Positions 2,214 through 56,513 of a stretch of 64,000 bases of DNA are shown in pieces (position 1 is the stretch's first letter; the number at the start of each line of letters is the position of its first letter). The stretch covers positions 1,759,501 through 1,823,500 of the forward strand of contig NZ_JAUSQV010000001.1 of NCBI RefSeq assembly GCF_030811475.1, given 5' to 3'. The stretch comes from Nakamurella flavida. Lineage in GTDB: Bacteria; Actinomycetota; Actinomycetes; Mycobacteriales; Nakamurellaceae. Below the pieces are notes generated by a model. It was not told the origin of the DNA and did no database searches. It saw only the letters and a list, made by a program, of their open reading frames with translations. The position numbers were made by a program, and so were the translations under genes.

Positions 2214-3373
2214 CGGCGGTCCCGCGGCCAGGCGCCGGTGGCCAGGAAGTCCCGGACGGTGCGGCGGGGTCCGGCGAGGTCCCACCCCTGGGCGGCGACC
2301 CAGTCGTCGTCGTAGTACGTGCCGGCGTACCGCTCGCCCCCGTCGCACAGCAGGGTGACCACCGACCCCCGGACGCCCTGGTCGCGCATCTGGGCGATGA
2401 GTTCGAAGCAGGCCCAGAGGTTGGTCCCGGTGGACGGCCCCACGCGGCGGCCGAGCACGGCACCGGCCTCGCGCATGGTGCCCACCGAAGCGGCATCGGG
2501 CACCCGCATCATCCGGTCGATGGCCTGCCCCACGAACGACGGCTCGACCCGGGGGCGGCCGATGCCCTCGATCCGGGACCCGGCACCCACCACCGACGGG
2601 TCACCCTCACGATAGGCGTCCAGGAACACCGAACCCTCCGGATCGGGCACGCACAGCCGGGTCTGGTGGCCGCGGTAGCGCAGGTAGCGGCCGATGGTCG
2701 CGCTGGTGCCCCCCGTGCCGGCGGCGATGACCACCCACTCGGGCACGGGATGGGGCTCCAGCCGCAGCTGGGCGAAGATCGACTCGGCGATGTTGTTGTT
2801 GCCGCGCCAGTCGGTGGCCCGCTCGGCGTGGGTGAACTGGTCCATGTAGTGCCCGCCGCATTCCGCGGCCAGCTGCCGGGAGCGGTCGTAGATGGCGGCC
2901 GGGTCCTCGACCAGATGGCACTGACCGCCCTGGGACTGGATCAGCGCGATCTTCTCCGGCGAGGTCCGGGCCGGCATCACGGCCACGAACGGCAGCCCGA
3001 TCAGCCGGGCGAAGTACGCCTCGGAGACCGCCGTCGACCCACTGGAGGACTCCACGACCGTCGTCCCCGGGGTGAGCCATCCGTTGCAGAGGGCGTAGAG
3101 GAACAGCGAGCGGGCCAGCCGGTGCTTGAGCGAGCCCGTCGGGTGGGTCGACTCGTCCTTCAGGTACAGGTCGATGCCCGGGACCGCGGGGAGCGGGAAA
3201 CGCAGCAGATGGGTGTCGGCGCTGCGCTGCGAGTCGGCCTCGATGAGCCGGACCGACCGGGCCACCCAGGCGCGGTCCTCGCCGTCGAACCGGTCGACCG
3301 ACCGGGCCTCACCCGGTGGCCCGACGACCCTGGCCGGGGCGGACATGTCGAGGGACACCGGCTCGCGCTGCAT
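2210..3373 (-). CDS. cds1: PLP-dependent cysteine desulfhydrase Cds1 family
   Basis: A 387-residue fold-type II PLP enzyme of the cysteine synthase family. The Schiff-base lysine is in [11 protein letters not shown] (about residue 83). The phosphate-binding segment is [13 protein letters not shown], and the second phosphate loop is [14 protein letters not shown]. The segments [22 protein letters not shown] and [11 protein letters not shown] match the M. tuberculosis Cds1 (Rv3684) subfamily more than true cysteine synthases. Cds1 degrades L-cysteine to pyruvate, ammonia and sulfide. The start is uncertain: ATG 3373 lacks a strong Shine-Dalgarno sequence, and in-frame starts at 3430 and about 3343 exist. 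It is the first gene of the overlapping operon that continues into the M20, GNAT and MenC-like genes, which suggests a wider amino-acid salvage unit. Confidence 0.8.
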
Positions 3374-3460
3374 TCCCGGAGGGTATCCAGGTGGGGTTGT
3401 CCCGCCGTCACGTGCCGGGACCGGGAGCACGCGCCGGGAGGATCGGTGGGTCCGGCCGGA

Positions 3461-3859
3461 TCAGTCCCGGCCGCCCTCGAGAGCCTCGCGCAGCTCCTGA
3501 CGGTGCCGACGGCGGGACGCCGACGCCGTGGCGACCGCCTCGTTCACCTTGCGGCGCTGCCGGGCGAAGATCAGCCAGGCCAGCGGCAGCTGGATGATGA
3601 TCGCGAACATCAGCGCGACGACCAGCGGCATGAAGAGGGTCAGGATGCCGGTGAGCACCGCGATCATCACGAAGCGCAGCGCGGTGTAGATCGCCAGGTC
3701 CCGACCGAGGTGGGCCGGCGGCCCGGCCGCCCCGTCCGCCGCATCCGGGCGGTCCGCCCCGGCGACACCGTCCGCCGCGGCGGCGTATCCCTCGAACCCG
3801 CCGGTCGGGACGCGCTCGGCGGACGGGACGGGACGATCGGGCGGCAGGGGTCCGGACAC
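3461..3859 (-). CDS. DUF4229 membrane protein
   Basis: A 132-residue protein with a disordered Asp/Ala/Pro-rich N-terminus of about 45 residues. It has two closely spaced hydrophobic segments (residues about 52-90), beginning YTALRFVMIAVLTGILTLF and ending in LPLAWLIFARQRRKV. A basic and acidic cytoplasmic tail (RRRHRQELREALEGGRD) follows. The YT-x-LR start and the double membrane hairpin with a positively charged exit match the actinobacterial DUF4229 family. No enzymatic motif is seen and its function is unknown. It is separated from the flanking genes by about 90 bases on each side and seems to stand alone. Confidence 0.75.
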   Translation of the reverse strand: MSGPLPPDRPVPSAERVPTGGFEGYAAAADGVAGADRPDAADGAAGPPAHLGRDLAIYTALRFVMIAVLTGILTLFMPLVVALMFAIIIQLPLAWLIFARQRRKVNEAVATASASRRRHRQELREALEGGRD

Positions 3860-3955
3860 GTCCTCCAGGATAGGCGCCGGGCGCTTCGACGAACCGGCCC
3901 GCGCGGAGCGGGCCGGCCGCGCGGGGACCCGATCCGCCCCCGGCGCCCGCCGTGA

Positions 3956-4411
3956 TCAGACCGGGTCGGCCAACCGGGCGGGCCGGTGCTCGAACCGGGT
4001 CGCCAGCACGACGGTCGTCCGGGTGCGGGCCACCCCCTCGATGGACCGCAGGCGGCCGAGGCACTCGTACAGCAGTCCCACGGTCGGCACCCGCACCTGG
4101 ATGACGAACGCCTCGTCCCCGGCCACCCCGTAGCAGCTCTCCACCTCCGGCATGGCGTGCAGGGCCGCGGCGATGACCTCGTCGCTGCCGCTCTCCCCCG
4201 GCTCGATCCCGACCAGGGCCGTCACCCCGAGGCCGATGGTCTCCGGGTCCACGGTGGCCCGGAAACCGGTGATCACCCCCGAGGACTCCAGTTTCGCCAC
4301 CCTCTCGTGGACGGCGGACGAGGACAGACCCACCATCCGCGCCAACTCCGCGTAACTGGCCCGCCCGTCCGTCCGCAGCGCCGTGATCAAAGTTCTGTCG
4401 ACCGAGTCCAT
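3956..4411 (-). CDS. Lrp/AsnC family transcriptional regulator
   Basis: A 151-residue Lrp/AsnC regulator. ATG 4411 follows a strong GGGGGAGGGG ribosome-binding site, so the longer in-frame extension to 4498 is rejected. The N-terminal winged helix-turn-helix reads DRTLITALRTDGRASYAELA, then VGLSSSAVHERVAKLE and GVITGFRA. The C-terminal RAM effector domain runs from about residue 65 (LGVTALVGIE) through CYGVAGDEAFVIQVRV to RTRTTVVLATRFE. Lrp-family proteins sense amino acids and regulate their metabolism. The nearby cysteine-desulfhydrase and D-amino-acid operon (start 3373) is a plausible target, but no operator was recognised. Confidence 0.9.
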   Translation of the reverse strand: MDSVDRTLITALRTDGRASYAELARMVGLSSSAVHERVAKLESSGVITGFRATVDPETIGLGVTALVGIEPGESGSDEVIAAALHAMPEVESCYGVAGDEAFVIQVRVPTVGLLYECLGRLRSIEGVARTRTTVVLATRFEHRPARLADPV

Positions 4412-4678
4412 GCGAACCCCTCCCCCTGAAGGCCGTACGCAGACCGTAGCGCCGCCCGCCCGAATCGTCGGGAGATCCACCCCGCCGCTGATCAGCACTG
4501 ACGGCGGGATCTTCGCAGCGAGTTCGCCGAAGGAGCCGAACTCCCCCGCTCACCCCATCACCCCAGCCGTGGTCACCCTGGCGATTCGCTGTGCGGTTTT
4601 CGGCCACGCACCGTGACCACGAAAATAGTGCACATCGGGAAGCCACGGGGGTCGATCAACCAGGGCGAAAGGAGCACA

Positions 4679-4734
4679 ATGGACACTGCGCCACCGTGGC
4701 GTGCGAGGCCAGTCGGGGCCTCTTTTGAGGAGGT
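4679..4734 (+). promoter_or_regulatory. bldC leader with competing hairpins and a decoy start
   Basis: The leader holds two mutually exclusive hairpins. GAGGCC (4705-4710) can pair with GGCCTC (4717-4722). Alternatively CCTC (4719-4722) can pair with GAGG (4727-4730) across a TTTT loop, which would bury the Shine-Dalgarno GAGGAGG (4727-4733) used by bldC. A second start, ATG at 4679 preceded by AAAGGAG, opens an out-of-frame reading frame that runs across the bldC start. The pairing is visible in the sequence; regulation is inferred. Confidence 0.4.
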
Positions 4735-4739
4735 GGCAC

Positions 4740-4946
4740 GTGACCATGGATACGGCCGAGAGACTGTTGACTCCCGGGGAGGTGGCGCTGATGTTCCGGG
4801 TCGATCCCAAGACCGTCACCCGCTGGGCGTCCGCCGGCCGGATCGGTTCCATCCGCACGCCGGGTGGGCACCGCCGGTTCCGCGAGTCCGAGGTGAGCTC
4901 GCTGCTCGCCGATCTGACCGTGGAGGCCTCGCGCACCAGCGCGTGA
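4740..4946 (+). CDS. bldC: BldC-type MerR-like DNA-binding protein
   Basis: A 68-residue protein, the same length as Streptomyces BldC. GTG 4740 is chosen over the ATG at 4746 because GAGGAGGT ends 6 bases before it. The body is a single winged-helix domain: LLTPGEVALMFRVDPKTVTR, then WASAGRIGSIRTPGGHRRFR and ESEVSSLL. VDPKTVTRWA is the recognition helix and GGHRRFRE is the wing. BldC binds repeated DNA sites head to tail and controls development in Streptomyces. It lacks the effector domain of classical MerR proteins. A strong hairpin follows the gene. Confidence 0.93.
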   Translation: MTMDTAERLLTPGEVALMFRVDPKTVTRWASAGRIGSIRTPGGHRRFRESEVSSLLADLTVEASRTSA

Positions 4947-4959
4947 CCCCAGCAGCACC

Positions 4960-4994
4960 ACGAACGCCCCGGCCGTCGCGGCCGGGGCGTTCGT
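4960..4994 (+). terminator. Terminator after bldC
   Basis: A perfect 15-base-pair stem (ACGAACGCCCCGGCC with its complement) and a five-base loop lie 14 bases after the bldC stop. There is no long T-run, as is usual in GC-rich actinobacteria. Confidence 0.8.
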
Positions 4995-5262
4995 CGTTCC
5001 CCGGGCGGTGCATCGCCGAGGCGTGGACCCGTTCCGGGCCGTCGGTCGGCCCAGCGATCCACGGCCGGACCTGGCCCGAATCCCGAACGGACGGCGCCCC
5101 CACGGCGGCGGCGGATGCCCGGGCACGACGACCGGCTCACCGTCATCGATCACGACCGTGGGTAGCGTCCCGGTCCGATCGCAGGCGGTCGATCGACGCC
5201 GGACCGAGACCCGCCGACCCCGGCGGAAATGCGTACTGTTGAACGGGACAAGGGAGGCACAG
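4995..5262. other. Intergenic region between bldC and the small membrane protein
   Basis: Apart from the bldC terminator just before it and the promoter near its right end, I see no gene, RNA or repeat here. Confidence 0.5.
5234..5239 (+). promoter_or_regulatory. -10 element for the small membrane protein
   Basis: TACTGT fits the actinobacterial TANNNT -10 pattern. It would start a roughly 17-base leader containing AGGGAGG before the ATG at 5263. No clear -35 is seen. Confidence 0.45.
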
Positions 5263-5481
5263 ATGTACATGCTCATCGCGATAGTAGTGACCGCAGTCGT
5301 CATTTTTCTGGCCTGGCGTGGAATCGGGGCACACCCGTCCGGCGCCACGGAGACGAGCGGCCCGCAGGCCCGGCACCCGTCCCGGCCGACGCGCCCGACC
5401 CGGACGATCGCCCCGGACGACGATCCGGAGTTCCTCGGTGAGATCGACCGCAAGCTCCGCGGCGAGGACAAGAGCAGCTGA
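5263..5481 (+). CDS. Small single-pass membrane protein
   Basis: A 72-residue protein with a good ribosome-binding site (AGGGAGG, 5 bases before ATG). Residues 3-19 form one hydrophobic helix (MLIAIVVTAVVIFLAWRG). The rest is a hydrophilic, Pro/Arg-rich cytoplasmic segment ending in the acidic DDDPEFLGEIDRKLRGEDKSS. No known family is recognised. The promoter, start site, codon use and terminator support a real gene. It converges on ccsB across a shared terminator, and any link to cytochrome maturation is only positional. Confidence 0.7.
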   Translation: MYMLIAIVVTAVVIFLAWRGIGAHPSGATETSGPQARHPSRPTRPTRTIAPDDDPEFLGEIDRKLRGEDKSS

Positions 5482-5557
5482 TCCACCGGGAGCCGGGTCC
5501 GCCCATGGTTCCGTGAGCCCCCCACGGGACCGGTGGCACCCCGCCCCGCCGGTACGC

Positions 5558-5600
5558 ACGACGAAGCCCCTGACCGCATCGCGGTCAGGGGCTTCGTCGT
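5558..5600. terminator. Bidirectional terminator between the small membrane gene and ccsB
   Basis: A perfect 20-base-pair inverted repeat (arm ACGACGAAGCCCCTGACCGC) with a three-base ATC loop lies between two convergent genes, so it can serve both strands. Confidence 0.88.
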
Positions 5601-5656
5601 GTCGGATGACCGCCGGCGGGGTCCGGGACCGGGCAGCGCGCGGTCCCGGCGGGCGA

Positions 5657-6712
5657 TCAGTTCAGGCCGGCGTAGGAGTGCAGGCCGGAGACGACCATGT
5701 TGATGAAGAAGAGGTTGAAGACGATCGTCGCGAAGCCGACGACCGACACCCAGGCCGCGGGGCGTCCGCGCCAGCCGGCCGTCGCCCGGGCGTGCAGGTA
5801 CGCCGCGTAGACCACCCAGGTGACGAAGGCGCAGGTCTCCTTTGGGTCCCAGCCCCAGTACCGACCCCAGGCGACCTCGGCCCACAGCGCACCGGCGATG
5901 ACCGCGAAGGTGTACAGCGGGAACGCGACGATGGCGGTCCGGTAGGCGATGCGGTCCAGGGTGGCCAGGGACGGCAGCCGGGACAGCAGCGAGGTGTCGG
6001 CGGCCAGGGACCGCGCCTCCCCCGCCGCGACCGTGCCGCTACCGGCCGACGCGACCAGGGTCTCCTGGGCGGACAGCCGCCGCTCGTAGCGACCACGGAT
6101 CAGGTACAGCACCGAAGCGGCGCCCGTCACCAGCAGGATGCTCGACGAGATCGAGATGGTGGAGACGTGGATCCACTTCCAGTACGAGTTCAGCGCGGGG
6201 ACGACCGGCCCGGCCGGGGTGTACAGAACGGAGAAGGCGACACCGGCCAGGATGACCACCGGCAGCATGACGAACAACCCGAGGGTGCGGGCCCTGGTCT
6301 TCACCAGCACGATCACCCAGCACAGCACGGCGGCCGCGCAGATCATCGACGTGAACTCGTACATGTTGGCCAGCGGCAGCCGGGAGGTGGCCAACCCCCG
6401 GAACAGGATGGACAGGATGTTGGCGGCCAACCCGATGACGGTGACCAGCACCGCGGCCGTGCCGAAGCGGGCACCGAGCGGAGCCGCCGACCGGCGGGGC
6501 GCCGACCCGATGTGCCCGATCGGCCCCTGCAGCGTCGCCGTCCCACCGCGCTGCCCCTGCCGGAGGCTGACGCTGGCCGCCTCGGCCTCGGTGGGGACCG
6601 CGCCGCGACGGGCGGCGAACTCGATCCCGTAGCAGACCAGGGCGACCACGTACCCGGCCAGGGCCAGCTCGAAGCCGATGTTCGACCAGTCGGCGAGCGT
6701 CTCGTTCACCAT
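5657..6712 (-). CDS. ccsB: Cytochrome c biogenesis protein CcsB (ResC)
   Basis: A 351-residue polytopic membrane protein of the system II cytochrome c maturation family (CcsA/CcsB/ResC). The tryptophan-rich heme-handling motif is WGRYWGWDPKETCAF near residue 283. Hydrophobic segments include the N-terminal GFELALAGYVVALVCYGIEF, one at VLVTVIGLAANILSILFRG, and several after residue 120. Histidines expected to ligate heme flank the motif (WIHVSTI, YLHARAT). With ResB it moves heme across the membrane and ligates it to apocytochrome c. It is the last gene of the tlpA-ccdA-resB-ccsB run, the same order as Rv0526-Rv0529. The ATG follows GGAGG. Confidence 0.95.
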   Translation of the reverse strand: MVNETLADWSNIGFELALAGYVVALVCYGIEFAARRGAVPTEAEAASVSLRQGQRGGTATLQGPIGHIGSAPRRSAAPLGARFGTAAVLVTVIGLAANILSILFRGLATSRLPLANMYEFTSMICAAAVLCWVIVLVKTRARTLGLFVMLPVVILAGVAFSVLYTPAGPVVPALNSYWKWIHVSTISISSSILLVTGAASVLYLIRGRYERRLSAQETLVASAGSGTVAAGEARSLAADTSLLSRLPSLATLDRIAYRTAIVAFPLYTFAVIAGALWAEVAWGRYWGWDPKETCAFVTWVVYAAYLHARATAGWRGRPAAWVSVVGFATIVFNLFFINMVVSGLHSYAGLN

Positions 6713-6837
6713 TGCTGTTCCTGCCTCCGGTACGTCCTGCTGATCACGATCGTGAACGCGGCCCGGTGGGGATCGCGTCGTGCTGGTGGTGGTCGTGCTG
6801 GTGGTGCCTGACCCTGCCTCGTGGGCCCTGCTCTGCC

Positions 6838-6861
6838 GAGCCGGCCCGATGCAGCCGGCTC
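6838..6861 (-). terminator. Hairpin at the resB stop codon
   Basis: An eight-base-pair stem (GAGCCGGC with its complement) and an eight-base loop start at the resB stop. It may attenuate transcription between resB and ccsB. Confidence 0.4.
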
Positions 6862-8563
6862 AGCGAGCCGAGCCGCCCTTGCCGGCCGCGGGATCCGGGC
6901 GGCCCAGGGTGACCAGGCGGTCGAACTCCTCGCCGTACCCGGCCTGGTCGGTGCGGGCCAACCCGCCCACGTCCACCACGGTACGTCCGACCACCGACGG
7001 TGGGGAGGCCGAGGCCGACCCCGTGGGTGTGACGGCGGCGACCGGCCGCAGTCGGAACCAGACCCGACGCCGCTTGACGGTCAACGAGATCATCAGGCCG
7101 ACCAGCAGCAGCACCGCGAACACCAGCGCGTACCCCTGCGCCGGGTCGTAGGACGTCTGCAGGGCGACCCACTGCCGGAACCCGCTGAAGGTGATGACCG
7201 TGCCGTCGTCCAGGGTGATGGACTGCCCGATGCTCAGGTTCTCCCGGGCCTGCTTGACCAGCGCGCCCTTGTCGACCTGGTTCTGGTCGATGGTGAACAC
7301 CGACTGGGCCAGGCCGCCCTCGAGCCCGAGGTCGCCGACGTAGACGTCGACGGCCACACCCGGGTCCCGCGGGGACGGGAACTGCGAGTCCATCAGGCCG
7401 TTCCGGATGACCTGGGTCGGCGCGAACAACCCGACGACGGCCAACTGGTGCTGGCGGACCTCGTCACCGACCCAACCGGGCGGGTCGGTCACCTTGACCA
7501 CCCCGGAGGACAGGAAGTTCGGATTGCCGTTCTCGGGCTGGAAGACCGCCTCGTAGGGGCGGACGGTGCCGTCCGGGTAGGTGACGGTGAACTGCGGGGT
7601 GAAGCCGTGACCGAGCAGGTAGAGCCGCTCCTGGCCCATCCGCAGCGGGTCGTTCACCTGCAGCAGGTCGGTGCCCCACCGATCGGTCCCGGCGTCCGCG
7701 CCGGACTGGTACTGCAGGCCGGCCTCGAAGGCGATGGCCTGACCCTGCTCGGTGTACCCGGCGTCGAAGGAGTCGACCTTGATGCAGAACGGCGCCATGT
7801 CGGTGCCGTCGATGGTCAGGCCGGGGCGGAAGTTGTCGTAGTTCGACGGCGAGGTCGAGCAGAACGGCTGGGTGACGCCGTTGACGTCCGGGCCGGCGTT
7901 GAGGATGACCGAGCCCTCGTAGCCGACGAGCTTGCCCACGGCGATGGCGACGAGCAGCCCGAGAAGGGACAGGTGGAAGACCAGGTTGCCGACCTCGCGC
8001 AGGTAGCCCTTCTCCGCAGAGACGGTGACCACCCCGCCCGGCTCCTCGCGGCGGGTGACACGCCAGCCCTTCAGGCCGCGCAGCACCCGGTCGGCGACCT
8101 CGTCCGGCGCGCCGGCGACCTGGTGGGTGTCGGCGTGCGGCAGCCGGGAGAGGTTGCGCGGGGTGGCCACCGGCGGCTGGCGGAGCTGGCGGTAGAAGTC
8201 CAGGCAGCGCGGCAGCACACAGCCGACGAGGGAGGTGAACAGCAGAAGGTAGATCGCCGCGTACCAGGGGGAGGCGAACACCTCGAAGAAGCCCAGTCGG
8301 TCCAGGATCGGGCCGAGGGTCGGATAGGTGTTGATGTAGGTCTGGGTCTTGGCCGCGTTCAGCGACCACTGCGGGAGCAGCGCGCCCGGCAGAGAGGCCA
8401 GGGCGAGCAGGAACAGCAGCACCAGCGCGGTGCGCATGCTGGTCAACTGCCGCCAGGTGTTGCGCAGGAAGGCCAGCGCAGCGCGTACCGGGCCCTGGCC
8501 CGGCCGCGGCGGCTGCGGATCGGGTGTGTCGTCGCGGGTGGAGATCCGGTCCTGGATGGACAT
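6860..8563 (-). CDS. resB: Cytochrome c biogenesis protein ResB (Ccs1)
   Basis: A 567-residue ResB/Ccs1 protein. After a Pro-rich start come three hydrophobic segments: TSMRTALVLLFLLALASLPG (about residue 41), SPWYAAIYLLLFTSLVGCVL (about 98) and LVFHLSLLGLLVAIAVG (about 192). A long extracytoplasmic domain follows, then a fourth segment (YALVFAVLLLVGLMISLTV) near residue 500. The SLPGALLPQW and YLREVGNLVFHLSL segments are typical. It partners CcsB in the heme exporter/synthetase. Its ATG immediately follows the ccdA stop codon with no spacer, which implies translational coupling. Confidence 0.95.
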   Translation of the reverse strand: MSIQDRISTRDDTPDPQPPRPGQGPVRAALAFLRNTWRQLTSMRTALVLLFLLALASLPGALLPQWSLNAAKTQTYINTYPTLGPILDRLGFFEVFASPWYAAIYLLLFTSLVGCVLPRCLDFYRQLRQPPVATPRNLSRLPHADTHQVAGAPDEVADRVLRGLKGWRVTRREEPGGVVTVSAEKGYLREVGNLVFHLSLLGLLVAIAVGKLVGYEGSVILNAGPDVNGVTQPFCSTSPSNYDNFRPGLTIDGTDMAPFCIKVDSFDAGYTEQGQAIAFEAGLQYQSGADAGTDRWGTDLLQVNDPLRMGQERLYLLGHGFTPQFTVTYPDGTVRPYEAVFQPENGNPNFLSSGVVKVTDPPGWVGDEVRQHQLAVVGLFAPTQVIRNGLMDSQFPSPRDPGVAVDVYVGDLGLEGGLAQSVFTIDQNQVDKGALVKQARENLSIGQSITLDDGTVITFSGFRQWVALQTSYDPAQGYALVFAVLLLVGLMISLTVKRRRVWFRLRPVAAVTPTGSASASPPSVVGRTVVDVGGLARTDQAGYGEEFDRLVTLGRPDPAAGKGGSAR

Positions 8564-28791: not shown

Positions 28792-30327
28792 TCAGTCGTC
28801 GGGCCAGGTGATGGCGTCGAACGCAGCCAGCAGGCGCGCCCCGCGTCCCGGGTGGGACGCGGCGACGTACGCGATCCGGCCCTGCAGGTGCTCCCGGAAG
28901 CGAAGGTGGTCGTCGGCCTGAGCGGCCGGTCCGTCCGTCCCGCACCGGTGGAGCACCGCCCGCAGCCGGTCGTACTCCGTGCGGGGTACCGCTGCGGATG
29001 CGTTCACCACCAGACCCGTGACCAGCTGCCGCTGGTGCGCTCCGCGGATCCGGGTCTTGGCCTCGTTCACCCGGAAACCCGCCGAAGCGACCATCCCGGT
29101 CACGGCCTCGGCCAGCCGGAGCGCGGCCCGCCCGGCGCGGGCTCCGCCGGTGCCGCCTCCCGGAAGGGAGAACGTCAGGTCGTCCGCGTACCGCGTGTAA
29201 CGCCAGCCGGCGCGCGCTGCGTAGTCCGTCAGCCGCCGGTCCAAGGTGAACGCGACCAGGTTGGCCAGCGCGGGTGAGGTCGGTGACCCCTGCGGGAGGT
29301 GGGGGACGTCCAACCGGCGGCCGAGTCGCCAGGCCGCGGACGTCGTCGCGGCCGCACCGGTCGGCATGCGCCGTCGTACGTCCACCGGAGTGCGCAGGGT
29401 GCACACCCCGGCCAGCAGGTGGGCCACCGGCTCCGGATACCCCGCCGACCGGAGCACCCCGTACACCCGCCCCGCCGTCACCGCCGAGAAGAACGACTCC
29501 AGATCCATCGTCAGGACCACGGCGGCGTCCTCGTGCACCCGGGCGCCGGTGATCGCCGACCGCCCGGTGACGCCGTGGGCCGCCGGATGCATCGGCAGCG
29601 GCGCCAGCAGCCCGTCCAGGATCCGCCGCTGGATGCTGCGCAGCCGCGGCCGCGGAGCCTCCAGCAACCGCGGTACCCGGCCGGGCCGCTCCACCCAGGC
29701 GAACCGGTAGTGCCTCAGCTCCGACCGGGTGTCCCGGCGCTGGAAACCCCGGGTGTCGGCGAACCACAGCAGTTCGCCCGTCGTGAGGGCGAGACGAGAG
29801 GCGAGAGCAGCGATGTAGTCCACCGCCGGGACCGGCCAGCGGCGTGGGCCCATCGCGGTGGAGGCGGCGAGGCGGCGGACCACGACCGGGCCGGGCACCG
29901 GCTCGAACAGGGCGGGCCAGGCACCCGTGAACGCACCTCCGCCGTCCTCCTCGTCGTCCTCCTCGTCGTCGTCCTCCCCGTCGTCCTCGTCCTGCTCGTC
30001 CTCGTCCTGCTCGTCCGCGCGGTGTCCTGCTCCGGTCGGCTCCCCCGCGGGCACGAGAACCGACTGCCACGTCGTCACTCCCACGTCCGGCGGCAGCGCC
30101 AGGTCGATGAACACCATGAACTCCCGTGGGGCGTCGGCCGGCGGGAACGGATGCGCGGCGAGGACGGCCCCGACCAGGTCCGCACCCCACGGTCCGACCG
30201 GGTCGATGCTCTCCGCCAGCCGCGCGAGCATGGCGGCGGCGGTCCACGGACCGGCCAGCAGGGCGTCGGACGCTGCGGCGACCAGCGCGGGGCGGGCGTG
30301 CGGACGAGGGAACGAACGGCCGGCCAT
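28792..30327 (-). CDS. Retron-type reverse transcriptase (Mx162-like)
   Basis: A 511-residue reverse transcriptase. ATG 30327 follows GGGGGGAGAGG. Catalytic palm motifs: TMDLESFFSAV (D275), LPQGSPTSPALANL (344-357), YTRYADDLTFS with YADD at 380-383, then GFRVNEAKTRI and RQLVTGLVVN with the retron-type VTG at 436-438. The segments MHPAAHGVTGRSAI and HEDAAV match the fingers of retron RTs. The C-terminus GRIAYVAASHPGRGARLL resembles myxobacterial Mx162 RT. Residues 1-100 are an unassigned domain, and 104-128 are an acidic linker (DEQDEDEQDEDDGEDDDEED and so on). The preceding 173 bases carry the expected msr-msd layout. The locus is inserted between lpqE and radA, which are adjacent in M. tuberculosis. 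Confidence 0.93.
   Translation of the reverse strand: MAGRSFPRPHARPALVAAASDALLAGPWTAAAMLARLAESIDPVGPWGADLVGAVLAAHPFPPADAPREFMVFIDLALPPDVGVTTWQSVLVPAGEPTGAGHRADEQDEDEQDEDDGEDDDEEDDEEDGGGAFTGAWPALFEPVPGPVVVRRLAASTAMGPRRWPVPAVDYIAALASRLALTTGELLWFADTRGFQRRDTRSELRHYRFAWVERPGRVPRLLEAPRPRLRSIQRRILDGLLAPLPMHPAAHGVTGRSAITGARVHEDAAVVLTMDLESFFSAVTAGRVYGVLRSAGYPEPVAHLLAGVCTLRTPVDVRRRMPTGAAATTSAAWRLGRRLDVPHLPQGSPTSPALANLVAFTLDRRLTDYAARAGWRYTRYADDLTFSLPGGGTGGARAGRAALRLAEAVTGMVASAGFRVNEAKTRIRGAHQRQLVTGLVVNASAAVPRTEYDRLRAVLHRCGTDGPAAQADDHLRFREHLQGRIAYVAASHPGRGARLLAAFDAITWPDD
29951..30022. repeat. Low-complexity tract encoding the acidic RT linker
   Basis: A GTCCTC/GTC-rich tract contains two direct copies of TCCTCGTCCTGCTCG side by side near 29991-30020. 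On the minus strand it encodes the Asp/Glu-rich linker, so its length could vary by slippage. Confidence 0.75.
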
Positions 30328-30380
30328 CGCCTCTCCCCCCGGAGCCCGTCCGCGCTTCGCTCGGTCGTGAACGCATGTCG

Positions 30381-30398
30381 ACGGGACGAGACGCACGA
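30381..30398 (-). repeat. Retron a2 repeat
   Basis: TCGTGCGTCTCGTCCCGT on the minus strand; complements a1 apart from one extra base. Confidence 0.8.
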
Positions 30399-30536
30399 CC
30401 GGTGTCGCTGTGCGGGCAGGTCCTGGCGCGGAGCGCCATGCGCCTGCCTGCGGCGTGCTGGTGGAGCTGACCTGCTCGACCCCGGGGGTACCCCGGAGAG
30501 TCCCGGCCCCGGGCGGACCCGGGGACTCGGACGTTC

Positions 30537-30553
30537 TCGTGCGCTCGTCCCGT
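30537..30553 (-). repeat. Retron a1 repeat
   Basis: ACGGGACGAGCGCACGA on the minus strand; pairs with 30381-30398. Confidence 0.8.
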
Positions 30554-30562
30554 TCGCGGGCC

Positions 30563-30568
30563 AGCCTG
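30563..30568 (-). promoter_or_regulatory. Possible -10 for the retron transcript
   Basis: CAGGCT on the minus strand, 9 bases before a1. Its start point would fall at or beside the first base of a1. No good -35 was found. Confidence 0.3.
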
Positions 30569-55184: not shown

Positions 55185-56513
55185 TCAGGACAGCACCAGC
55201 TGGGCGAAGGTGTAGATGGCCAGTCCGGCCAGGGCGCCGACGACGGTGCCGTTGATGCGGATGAACTGCAGATCCCGGCCGACCTGCAGCTCGATCTTGC
55301 GACTGGTGGCCTGACCGTCCCAACGGGAGATGGTCTCGTCGATGATCCCGGTGATCCCCCGGGCGTGGTGCCGGGCCAGGTAACCGGCCGCGTCCGCCAC
55401 CCAGGCGTCCACCTTGGCGCCCAGCTCGGCGTCCTCGGTCAGCCGGACCCCGAACTCCTGCAGGGAGGTCGTCACCGACCGCCGGAGGGTGGAGTCCGGG
55501 TCCTCGGCCGCCTCGATCAGGGCCGACTTGACCGACGACCAGGCGCTGGCGGCGAGCGAACGGACCTGCTCGTTGCTCAGGATGCGATCCTTGATGTTCT
55601 CGGCGCGCTCGATGGTCGCCGGGTCGTCCTGCAGGTCCTGGGCGAACTCGGCGAGGAAGGTGTCCAGGGCCAGGCGCATCTGGTGCTGCGGGTCGGTCTT
55701 CACGGCCAGGGCGAAGGCCTCCACCTCCCGGTAGAGCCGGTCGGAGACCATCGAGTCCAGGAAGCGCGGCGACCACGACGGGGAACGTTCGGACACCACG
55801 CGGGACACCGTCGTGTAGTTGTCCCGGATCCAGGCGTGCAGCCGGTCGACGACGAAGTCGACGAGGGCGTGGTGGTCCCCGCGTGCGAAGACCTCCCCGG
55901 CGATGCGCCCGAGCGGCGGACCGACCTTGGTGTCGGCGATCTTGCGCAGCGCGATGGACTCGAAGAGCTGGGCGACCTGGTCGTCCCGCAGCACCGTGGT
56001 CAGCCCGCGGACCGCGCTGGCCATCTCGGCGGTGACCCGTTCCGCGGTCTCGCGCCGGGACAGGAACGCCCCCGCCCGGCGGGCCACGGAGAAGTCCGCG
56101 AGCTTGGCCCGCACCACGTCCTCGGACAGGAAGTTGGTGGCCACGAACTCCGACAACGAGGAGCCGATGGCGTCCTTGCGGTTCGGGATGATCGCCGTGT
56201 GCGGGATGGGCAACCCCATCGGTCGGCGGAAGAGCGCCGTCACGGCGAACCAGTCGGCCAGCGCGCCGACCATGCCGGCCTCGGCCATGGCCCGGACGTA
56301 CCCGAGCCACGGGTGGCGGTCCTGCAGCAGGTAGGCGACGACGAACAGCACCGCCATGAAGACCAGGGCCCCGGTGGCCACCGCCTTCATGACGTTCAGC
56401 CGGCGGCGTCGCTCCTGGTCGGCCGGGCTCAGATCGGTGACCCGGGAACGGGCGCGGGACGGCCGGGACGCCTCCGGACGGGGCGCGGTCGGGTCCGCGG
56501 CGGGGGTGCTCAT
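55185..56513 (-). CDS. DUF445 membrane protein
   Basis: A 442-residue protein of the DUF445 family. The N-terminal part has a helix (AVATGALVFMAVLFVVAYLL) and the family signature GMVGALADWFAVTALFRRPM, followed by IPHTAIIPNRKDAIGSSLSE. The long middle is helical (residues about 130-400). The C-terminal segment INGTVVGALAGLAIYTFAQL is hydrophobic. The topology suggests two membrane anchors with a large cytosolic or periplasmic helical domain. Function is unknown. Confidence 0.9.
   Translation of the reverse strand: MSTPAADPTAPRPEASRPSRARSRVTDLSPADQERRRRLNVMKAVATGALVFMAVLFVVAYLLQDRHPWLGYVRAMAEAGMVGALADWFAVTALFRRPMGLPIPHTAIIPNRKDAIGSSLSEFVATNFLSEDVVRAKLADFSVARRAGAFLSRRETAERVTAEMASAVRGLTTVLRDDQVAQLFESIALRKIADTKVGPPLGRIAGEVFARGDHHALVDFVVDRLHAWIRDNYTTVSRVVSERSPSWSPRFLDSMVSDRLYREVEAFALAVKTDPQHQMRLALDTFLAEFAQDLQDDPATIERAENIKDRILSNEQVRSLAASAWSSVKSALIEAAEDPDSTLRRSVTTSLQEFGVRLTEDAELGAKVDAWVADAAGYLARHHARGITGIIDETISRWDGQATSRKIELQVGRDLQFIRINGTVVGALAGLAIYTFAQLVLS

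Follow-up and report, generated by a model that had tools for sequence, protein, structure and literature searches.

The stretch of DNA analysed here (the window, 64,000 nucleotides of Nakamurella flavida) contains, between lpqE and radA, what is in all likelihood a retron-like retroelement: an msr-msd RNA followed by a reverse transcriptase (RT), together making msDNA. It belongs to a divergent and apparently effector-less clade and very probably produces msDNA. The initial annotation had read the segment upstream of the RT as the msr-msd, and this reading is supported by the fold of the RNA, its covariation and its RT-linked distribution in relatives. The features of the element are collected in Table 1.

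Table 1. Features of the retron-like element, in positions of the window
Feature	Position	Strand	Basis
a1 arm, 5' end of the RNA	30537..30556	-	Fold; conserved, co-varies with a2 in relatives
a2 arm, pairs with a1	30379..30398	-	Fold; covariation
Guanosine next to a1 on its 3' side, candidate for branching (priming)	30536..30536	-	G in 66 of the 70 RNAs aligned
Hairpin I (msr), variable length	30500..30532	-	Fold; 5 of 5 pairs with double changes
Hairpin II (msr), CTCCGGGG-NNN-CCCCGGGG type	30480..30498	-	Nearly invariant in the family; 99.5% of cells paired
Hairpin III, probable msd (template) hairpin	30412..30451	-	Fold and covariation
Putative reverse-transcribed template, upper bound 81 nt, hairpin II to a2	30399..30479	-	From the retron mechanism
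-10-like hexamer CAGGCT just before a1	30563..30568	-	Near-match to the TANNNT of relatives
RT gene	28792..30327	-	511 aa (stop included); ORF translation, profile and fold matches
Ribosome-binding-like GGGGGGAGAG	30331..30340	-	5' of the RT start; read from sequence
YADD catalytic motif, residues 380-383	29179..29190	-	Sequence; YxDD in all 63 clade RTs aligned
Small helical N-terminal region, residues 11-75	30103..30297	-	Low-confidence part of the model; in many, not all, relatives
Asp/Glu-rich linker, residues 104-129	29941..30018	-	Sequence; low model confidence

In the retron anatomy set out in PMC6868368, an RNA upstream of the RT and on the same strand is closed by the arms a1 and a2, with a G at the edge of a1 and hairpins inside. 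The window has a structured RNA at 30379-30556 (reverse strand), upstream of the RT and on its strand, in which an a1/a2 stem encloses three conserved hairpins. The minimum free energy of 30375-30560 (reverse strand) is -109.7 kcal/mol, compared with a mean of -85.8 (standard deviation 4.1) for 200 dinucleotide shuffles; this is 24 kcal/mol better than the shuffle mean (z -5.85), and none of the 200 shuffles folded as low. The inverted repeat first described as 17 base pairs is real and turns out to be slightly longer, with 19 pairs and one bulged base in each arm. The fold also bears out the hairpins noted inside the stem, and the G adjoining a1 is the base at 30536. Hairpin III is the probable msd, given its position before a2. 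There is no run of T after hairpin II. No Rfam family matched the window at the gathering threshold, and around the RNA there were three chance-level matches at E<=10.

Single-base shuffles predict 7.4 loci with a TANNNT hexamer within -45 to -10 of the start of the RNA model; 41 of the 64 loci have one, usually at -21 to -25. This placement before the RNA suggests that transcription probably starts at the a1 end. At the other end, the distance from the RNA model to the first in-frame ATG, GTG or TTG has a median of 24 nt over 61 loci, not all of these codons being real starts.

The RNA is conserved well beyond the window. An RT search matched 33 of 101 relatives, and in 28 of the 30 loci fetched a pattern search found hairpin II upstream, flanked by a1 and a2 arms complementary over 10-26 nt, mismatches allowed. 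In these 28 loci, arms from the same locus scored 43.5 on average versus 26.7 for arms from different loci. Own pairing was better than all 20 of a locus's own shuffles in 24 of the 28 and better than all 27 mispairings in 14, some of the other loci having met the arms of near relatives. The window's arms were equalled by five of the 27 foreign arms and are not outstanding in this test, which is ungapped, because of their bulge.

From 24 of the 30 loci we prepared alignments A1 and A2 and a covariance model, R1, of 142 positions and 34 pairs; L004 and L029 were omitted (hairpin pattern not found), as were L020, L023, L025 and L030, which are divergent. At E<=0.001 R1 has one match in every locus of a chosen set of 70, which is not an independent count because 35 of these loci (L162-L196) were themselves retrieved through R1; in this set L197 replaces L004. 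R1 gives the window RNA 84 bits, against 104-122 for seven RNAs of the same genus and 47-85 for three others. A second match in the window (55833-55949, reverse strand; 21.8 bits, E 0.014) lies far from the RT and is probably due to chance.

In the alignment of the 70 RNAs (A3), which was fitted to the R1 structure and includes the 24 RNAs that trained it, 92.5% of cells pair, compared with 70.3% after shuffling (none of 500 as high) and only 36-44% when partners are slid. Double (compensatory) changes are found in 29 of the 34 pairs, including all eight of a1/a2, so that the inverted repeat is indeed kept in relatives with compensatory change. On an unfitted MAFFT alignment of 24 RNAs, RNAalifold gave 16 of 26 pairs doubly changed, in the three hairpins. 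The a1/a2 stem is absent from this unfitted consensus, and independent support for the predicted pairing is the test of own against mispaired arms.

The base following the inner pair of a1 is G in 66 of the 70 aligned RNAs. The remaining four have their stem shifted by one base in the model, and a direct stem search gives G for L020, L023 and L025. The commonest contexts of this base are AGGA (19), GAGA (18), GAGG (10) and GAGC (9); priming contexts given for known retrons are TAGC, CAGA, CAGC, GAGC and ACGC (PMC6868368). By its position G30536 corresponds to the G that retrons carry at the inner end of a1, and it is our candidate for the priming base. A conserved coding frame through the RNA was considered and ruled out by lengths that are not kept in multiples of three: division by three leaves 0, 1 or 2 in 25, 20 and 25 of the 70 for the RNA core, and in 10, 25 and 35 for the part from hairpin II to a2. 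In 58 of 69 loci the RT frame stays open back into the RNA, which is usual for high-GC sequence.

When 298 genomes of the host order were searched separately with the RNA model and the RT protein, the RNA was found in 65, an RT match in 74 and both in 64. In all 64 the RNA lies upstream of the RT on the same strand and contig; 24 of these RNAs had trained R1 and 40 had not. The Fisher p value for co-occurrence, 4e-53, counts related genomes as independent and so overstates the association. In the only genome with the RNA alone (G065), the contig stops 152 bases from the RNA, on the side expected to hold the RT. The ten genomes with an RT alone have matches that are weak or short (G021, G565, G620, G097), matches that are broken or fragmentary (G091, G488, G524, G608), or distinct RTs (G582, 37%; perhaps G615, 36%). 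RNA and RT are about 2 kb apart in G523 and about 4 kb apart in G009, where the RNA hit scores 47 bits and other genes stand between. In the latter (L197; G009:C24:211000-219500, 2938-6972) these are an ABC transporter gene, a small HTH gene and a weakly SecB-like gene, the last two in what we take to be a toxin-antitoxin-chaperone-like order; either the retron has been split by insertion, or the RNA found there is a stray copy.

In a sample taken across the phylum, 4 of 396 genomes were positive, counting that of the window. R1 also matches on plasmids of Tsukamurella (59 bits), Dietzia (75 bits) and Burkholderia pyrrocinia (L145, 43 bits) and in a Myxococcales MAG (L086, 55 bits), all of them members found through the RT protein alone. 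The same RNA in L145 and L086, outside the Actinobacteria, suggests transfer between phyla. On 80 distant loci R1 matched only L086, which belongs to the window's own clade, at E<=0.001, and no Nannocystis locus; weak matches lie upstream of the RT in L073 (0.12) and L099 (0.25). A single-sequence inverted-repeat scan scored above every one of 12 shuffles in 12 of the 67 distant RT loci and, within the RNA-bearing clade, in no more than 12 of 28. Such a scan is too weak in GC-rich DNA, and its silence in the planctomycete and Nannocystis group is therefore uninformative.

The window translation confirms the RT as first described, with 511 residues, YADD at 380-383 and an intact VTG at 436-438; the start codon is an ATG preceded by the ribosome-binding-like sequence. 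The retron-like finger motifs that had also been claimed are only partly there, NAxxH being reduced to its A and H (GARVH, 261-265). Among 63 aligned clade RTs, the N of this region X motif is found in none, the A in 48 and the H in 62; in region Y, V is kept in 39, T in 18 and G in 62. NAxxH is present in 14 of 16 validated retrons and so is not strictly defining (PMC6868368), while VTG has been reported for 47% of retron and retron-like RTs (PMC4244168). The window RT alone among the 63 has a six-residue insert (388-393) after the catalytic strand. An AlphaFold model built with 53 sequences has most of the catalytic core above pLDDT 90; it is good over most of the RT core and poor at the N terminus (mean pLDDT 73). 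The small N-terminal region has no Pfam match above cut-off; a loose pattern search picked it up in 47 of 69 loci. Short RTs judged by sequence to be without it (L020, L023, L025, L190) still have the RNA, and this region is therefore no universal effector. The linker is repeat-like, with GACGAG/GAGGAC units, and is absent from the N-terminal regions of relatives that were compared.

The closest profiles to the window RT, beyond the general Pfam match to RVT_1, are the PADLOC families RT_other (PDLC02949, 499 bits) and RT_outgroup (PDLC03740, 473 bits), which cover nearly its whole length including the N-terminal region; the RT of congener G001 scores 550 bits with RT_outgroup. PADLOC retron types come next at no more than 282 bits, the NCBIfam retron models reach 144-173 bits, short of the cut-off in every case, and the group II maturase and DRT2 models give 37 and 34 bits. 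In a phmmer search of PDB sequences retron RTs came first. Foldseek ranks 1-18 are all retron RTs, with at most 25% identity to the window RT, followed by group II introns at 1e-8, the best DGR at rank 26 (1e-7), and DRT2 at 1.6e-7, below several group II and DGR chains.

The RT tree was made from 98 of 147 sequences, with 28 of the distant set kept and no DGR included; L004, L018, L166, L187, L192, L195, L108 and L110 had been left out as fragments or near-copies. In it the RNA-bearing RTs (61 actinobacterial rows, the window among them, together with L086 and L145) are grouped on one side of a fork (SH-aLRT 80), and Ec86, Ec67 and St85 with planctomycete and Nannocystis RTs form the other (SH-aLRT 86). 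The clade thus stands beside the sampled retrons and is not nested among them. The key forks have moderate support (80-92), and a sister relationship to retrons is likely, if not firm because the outgroup branches are long. As the initial annotation had expected, the RT falls in the retron lineage; it is set apart from group II introns by profiles, tree and fold, and from DGRs by Foldseek rank only. Its likeness to Mx162-type enzymes holds for the N-terminal extension, described for Mx162, Sa163, Mx65 and Ne144 (PMC6868368; Mx162 was compared by this description), but not for grouping: the Nannocystis RT loci (e.g. L045 and L061) belong to another clade, have an N-terminal region that looks unlike this one by eye, and lack an R1 match.

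The proposed insertion into a conserved lpqE-radA block is supported by same-genus genomes. Thirteen of 16 lpqE loci have radA beside lpqE, with 185-401 nt between the aligned parts in 11 of the 13 and 771 and 1370 nt in the others. The interval in the window is about 2.1 kb, and therefore about 1.7-1.9 kb is extra there. The nine same-genus neighbourhoods fetched were compared with the window block for 11 of its genes, and in no case was one of them found near the RT. Host lineages are also mixed on the RT tree, where same-genus genomes G004 and G016 carry RTs of another subclade. Since the element stands at different genomic sites in mixed host lineages, the RNA-RT pair is, as judged from these comparisons, mobile.

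The lpqE-radA interval itself is variable and may be an insertion hotspot. A gene of a nickel-insertion family follows lpqE in G016 (L199), as a 344-aa ORF without a Pfam match does in G011 (L200), and the 8-kb stretches of G014 (L198) and G016 showed no radA. In L112, L116 and L130 (G001, G005 and G004), a shared ORF and a tRNA-Lys gene are found 2.4-4.6 kb from RTs of two different subclades, always to the same side, as though different copies had arrived in a single region. tRNA genes were considered as insertion sites and rejected; five of 20 neighbourhoods contain tRNA genes, in every case more than 2 kb from the RT.

Across 23 neighbourhoods and their 25 largest ORF families, no neighbour gene has a fixed place beside the RT, and therefore no effector is visible; neither an effector gene nor a fused domain of the tripartite defence retrons was found. 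Two candidate families were rejected. The most frequent one (eight loci, upstream) proved to overlap the RNA wherever this was checked (four loci), and an ABC-transporter-like family has four loci at 30-33% identity across host families, in varied places and orientations. Other families reach at most four loci each, several of them being common to genomes of one family or genus.

The element shares with Retron-Eco1 (Ec86), Ec67, Ec78/Ec83 and Eco8 the RT fold, the upstream RNA on the same strand, the a1/a2 stem, the G at the edge of a1 and the hairpins, one of which precedes a2. Its clade differs from these retrons in that NAxxH is absent, VTG is mostly lost and no effector gene is seen, and in that many members have the small helical N-terminal region. 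The protein family is already catalogued as retron-related, under PADLOC RT_outgroup and RT_other. What seems new, as judged from our literature search, is the RNA of this clade; the search found no description of such an actinobacterial retron RNA, though one may exist, and PADLOC has msr-msd covariance models of its own (PMC9252829).

If the element works as retrons do, one transcript would carry the msr-msd RNA and then the RT message. After pairing of a1 with a2, the RT would bind the RNA and prime from the 2'-OH of G30536. The stretch before a2, with hairpin III and at most about 81 nt, would be copied to single-stranded DNA, which would stay attached to the RNA by a 2'-5' bond. Defence against phages, as a role for the product, is a guess by analogy with other retrons.

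Other readings of the locus can be weighed against the same data. RNA and RT may have been kept while msDNA is no longer made in this host, the copy being decayed or domesticated. Remnant-like RT matches without the RNA (G091, G097, G488, G524, G620) would fit such decay, as would the lower R1 score of the window RNA relative to most of its congeners, the unique insert and the acidic linker; against it, the frame is open, YADD and VTG are intact, 19 a1/a2 pairs can form and the core is mostly modelled above pLDDT 90, and we consider loss of function improbable. Slightly less probable again is a defence-associated RT like DRT2, DRT9 or DRT10, in which the upstream RNA would give rise to repeated or protein-primed cDNA, perhaps encoding a peptide, rather than to branched msDNA. 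An RT beside a structured RNA and without an effector gene does recall DRT2 (PMC12039810). However, the DRT2 model scores far below RT_other, the DRT2 fold match ranks below all 18 retron chains, RNA lengths outside multiples of three leave no conserved frame, and the a1/a2 stem with its adjoining G is retron anatomy.

The least likely of these readings, to which we give very little credence, is that the RNA serves the RT gene as a cis-regulatory leader and does not act as a template. The RNA does lie directly upstream, at the short median distance from possible starts given above, but its long closing stem, the retron-like G by a1 and the lack of a T run after hairpin II speak against this reading; the RNA may still have a regulatory role besides.

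Returning to the msDNA-producing retron, we propose, tentatively and as a possibility we do not favour outright, that it stands for a deep-branching effector-less lineage centred on one actinobacterial order, with its own msr-msd family without an Rfam match, spreading as a bare RNA-RT pair. Its msDNA might act alone, via the N-terminal region of the RT, or on a host factor encoded elsewhere. Retrons listed as experimentally characterised in a 2022 review (PMC8867640) come from Delta-, Gamma- and Alphaproteobacteria and Bacteroides. Here RTs of the PADLOC 'outgroup' and 'other' classes go with a co-varying RNA of msr-msd type in 64 of the 298 genomes searched within a single actinobacterial order and on plasmids, which provides a searchable RNA model and a candidate priming base. 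A retron without a visible effector would allow the role of msDNA by itself to be asked, and high-GC hosts may gain a native tool for producing RT-DNA. Four distant RTs, with 24-29% identity, were also found on viral contigs of 88-190 kb (L225-L228).
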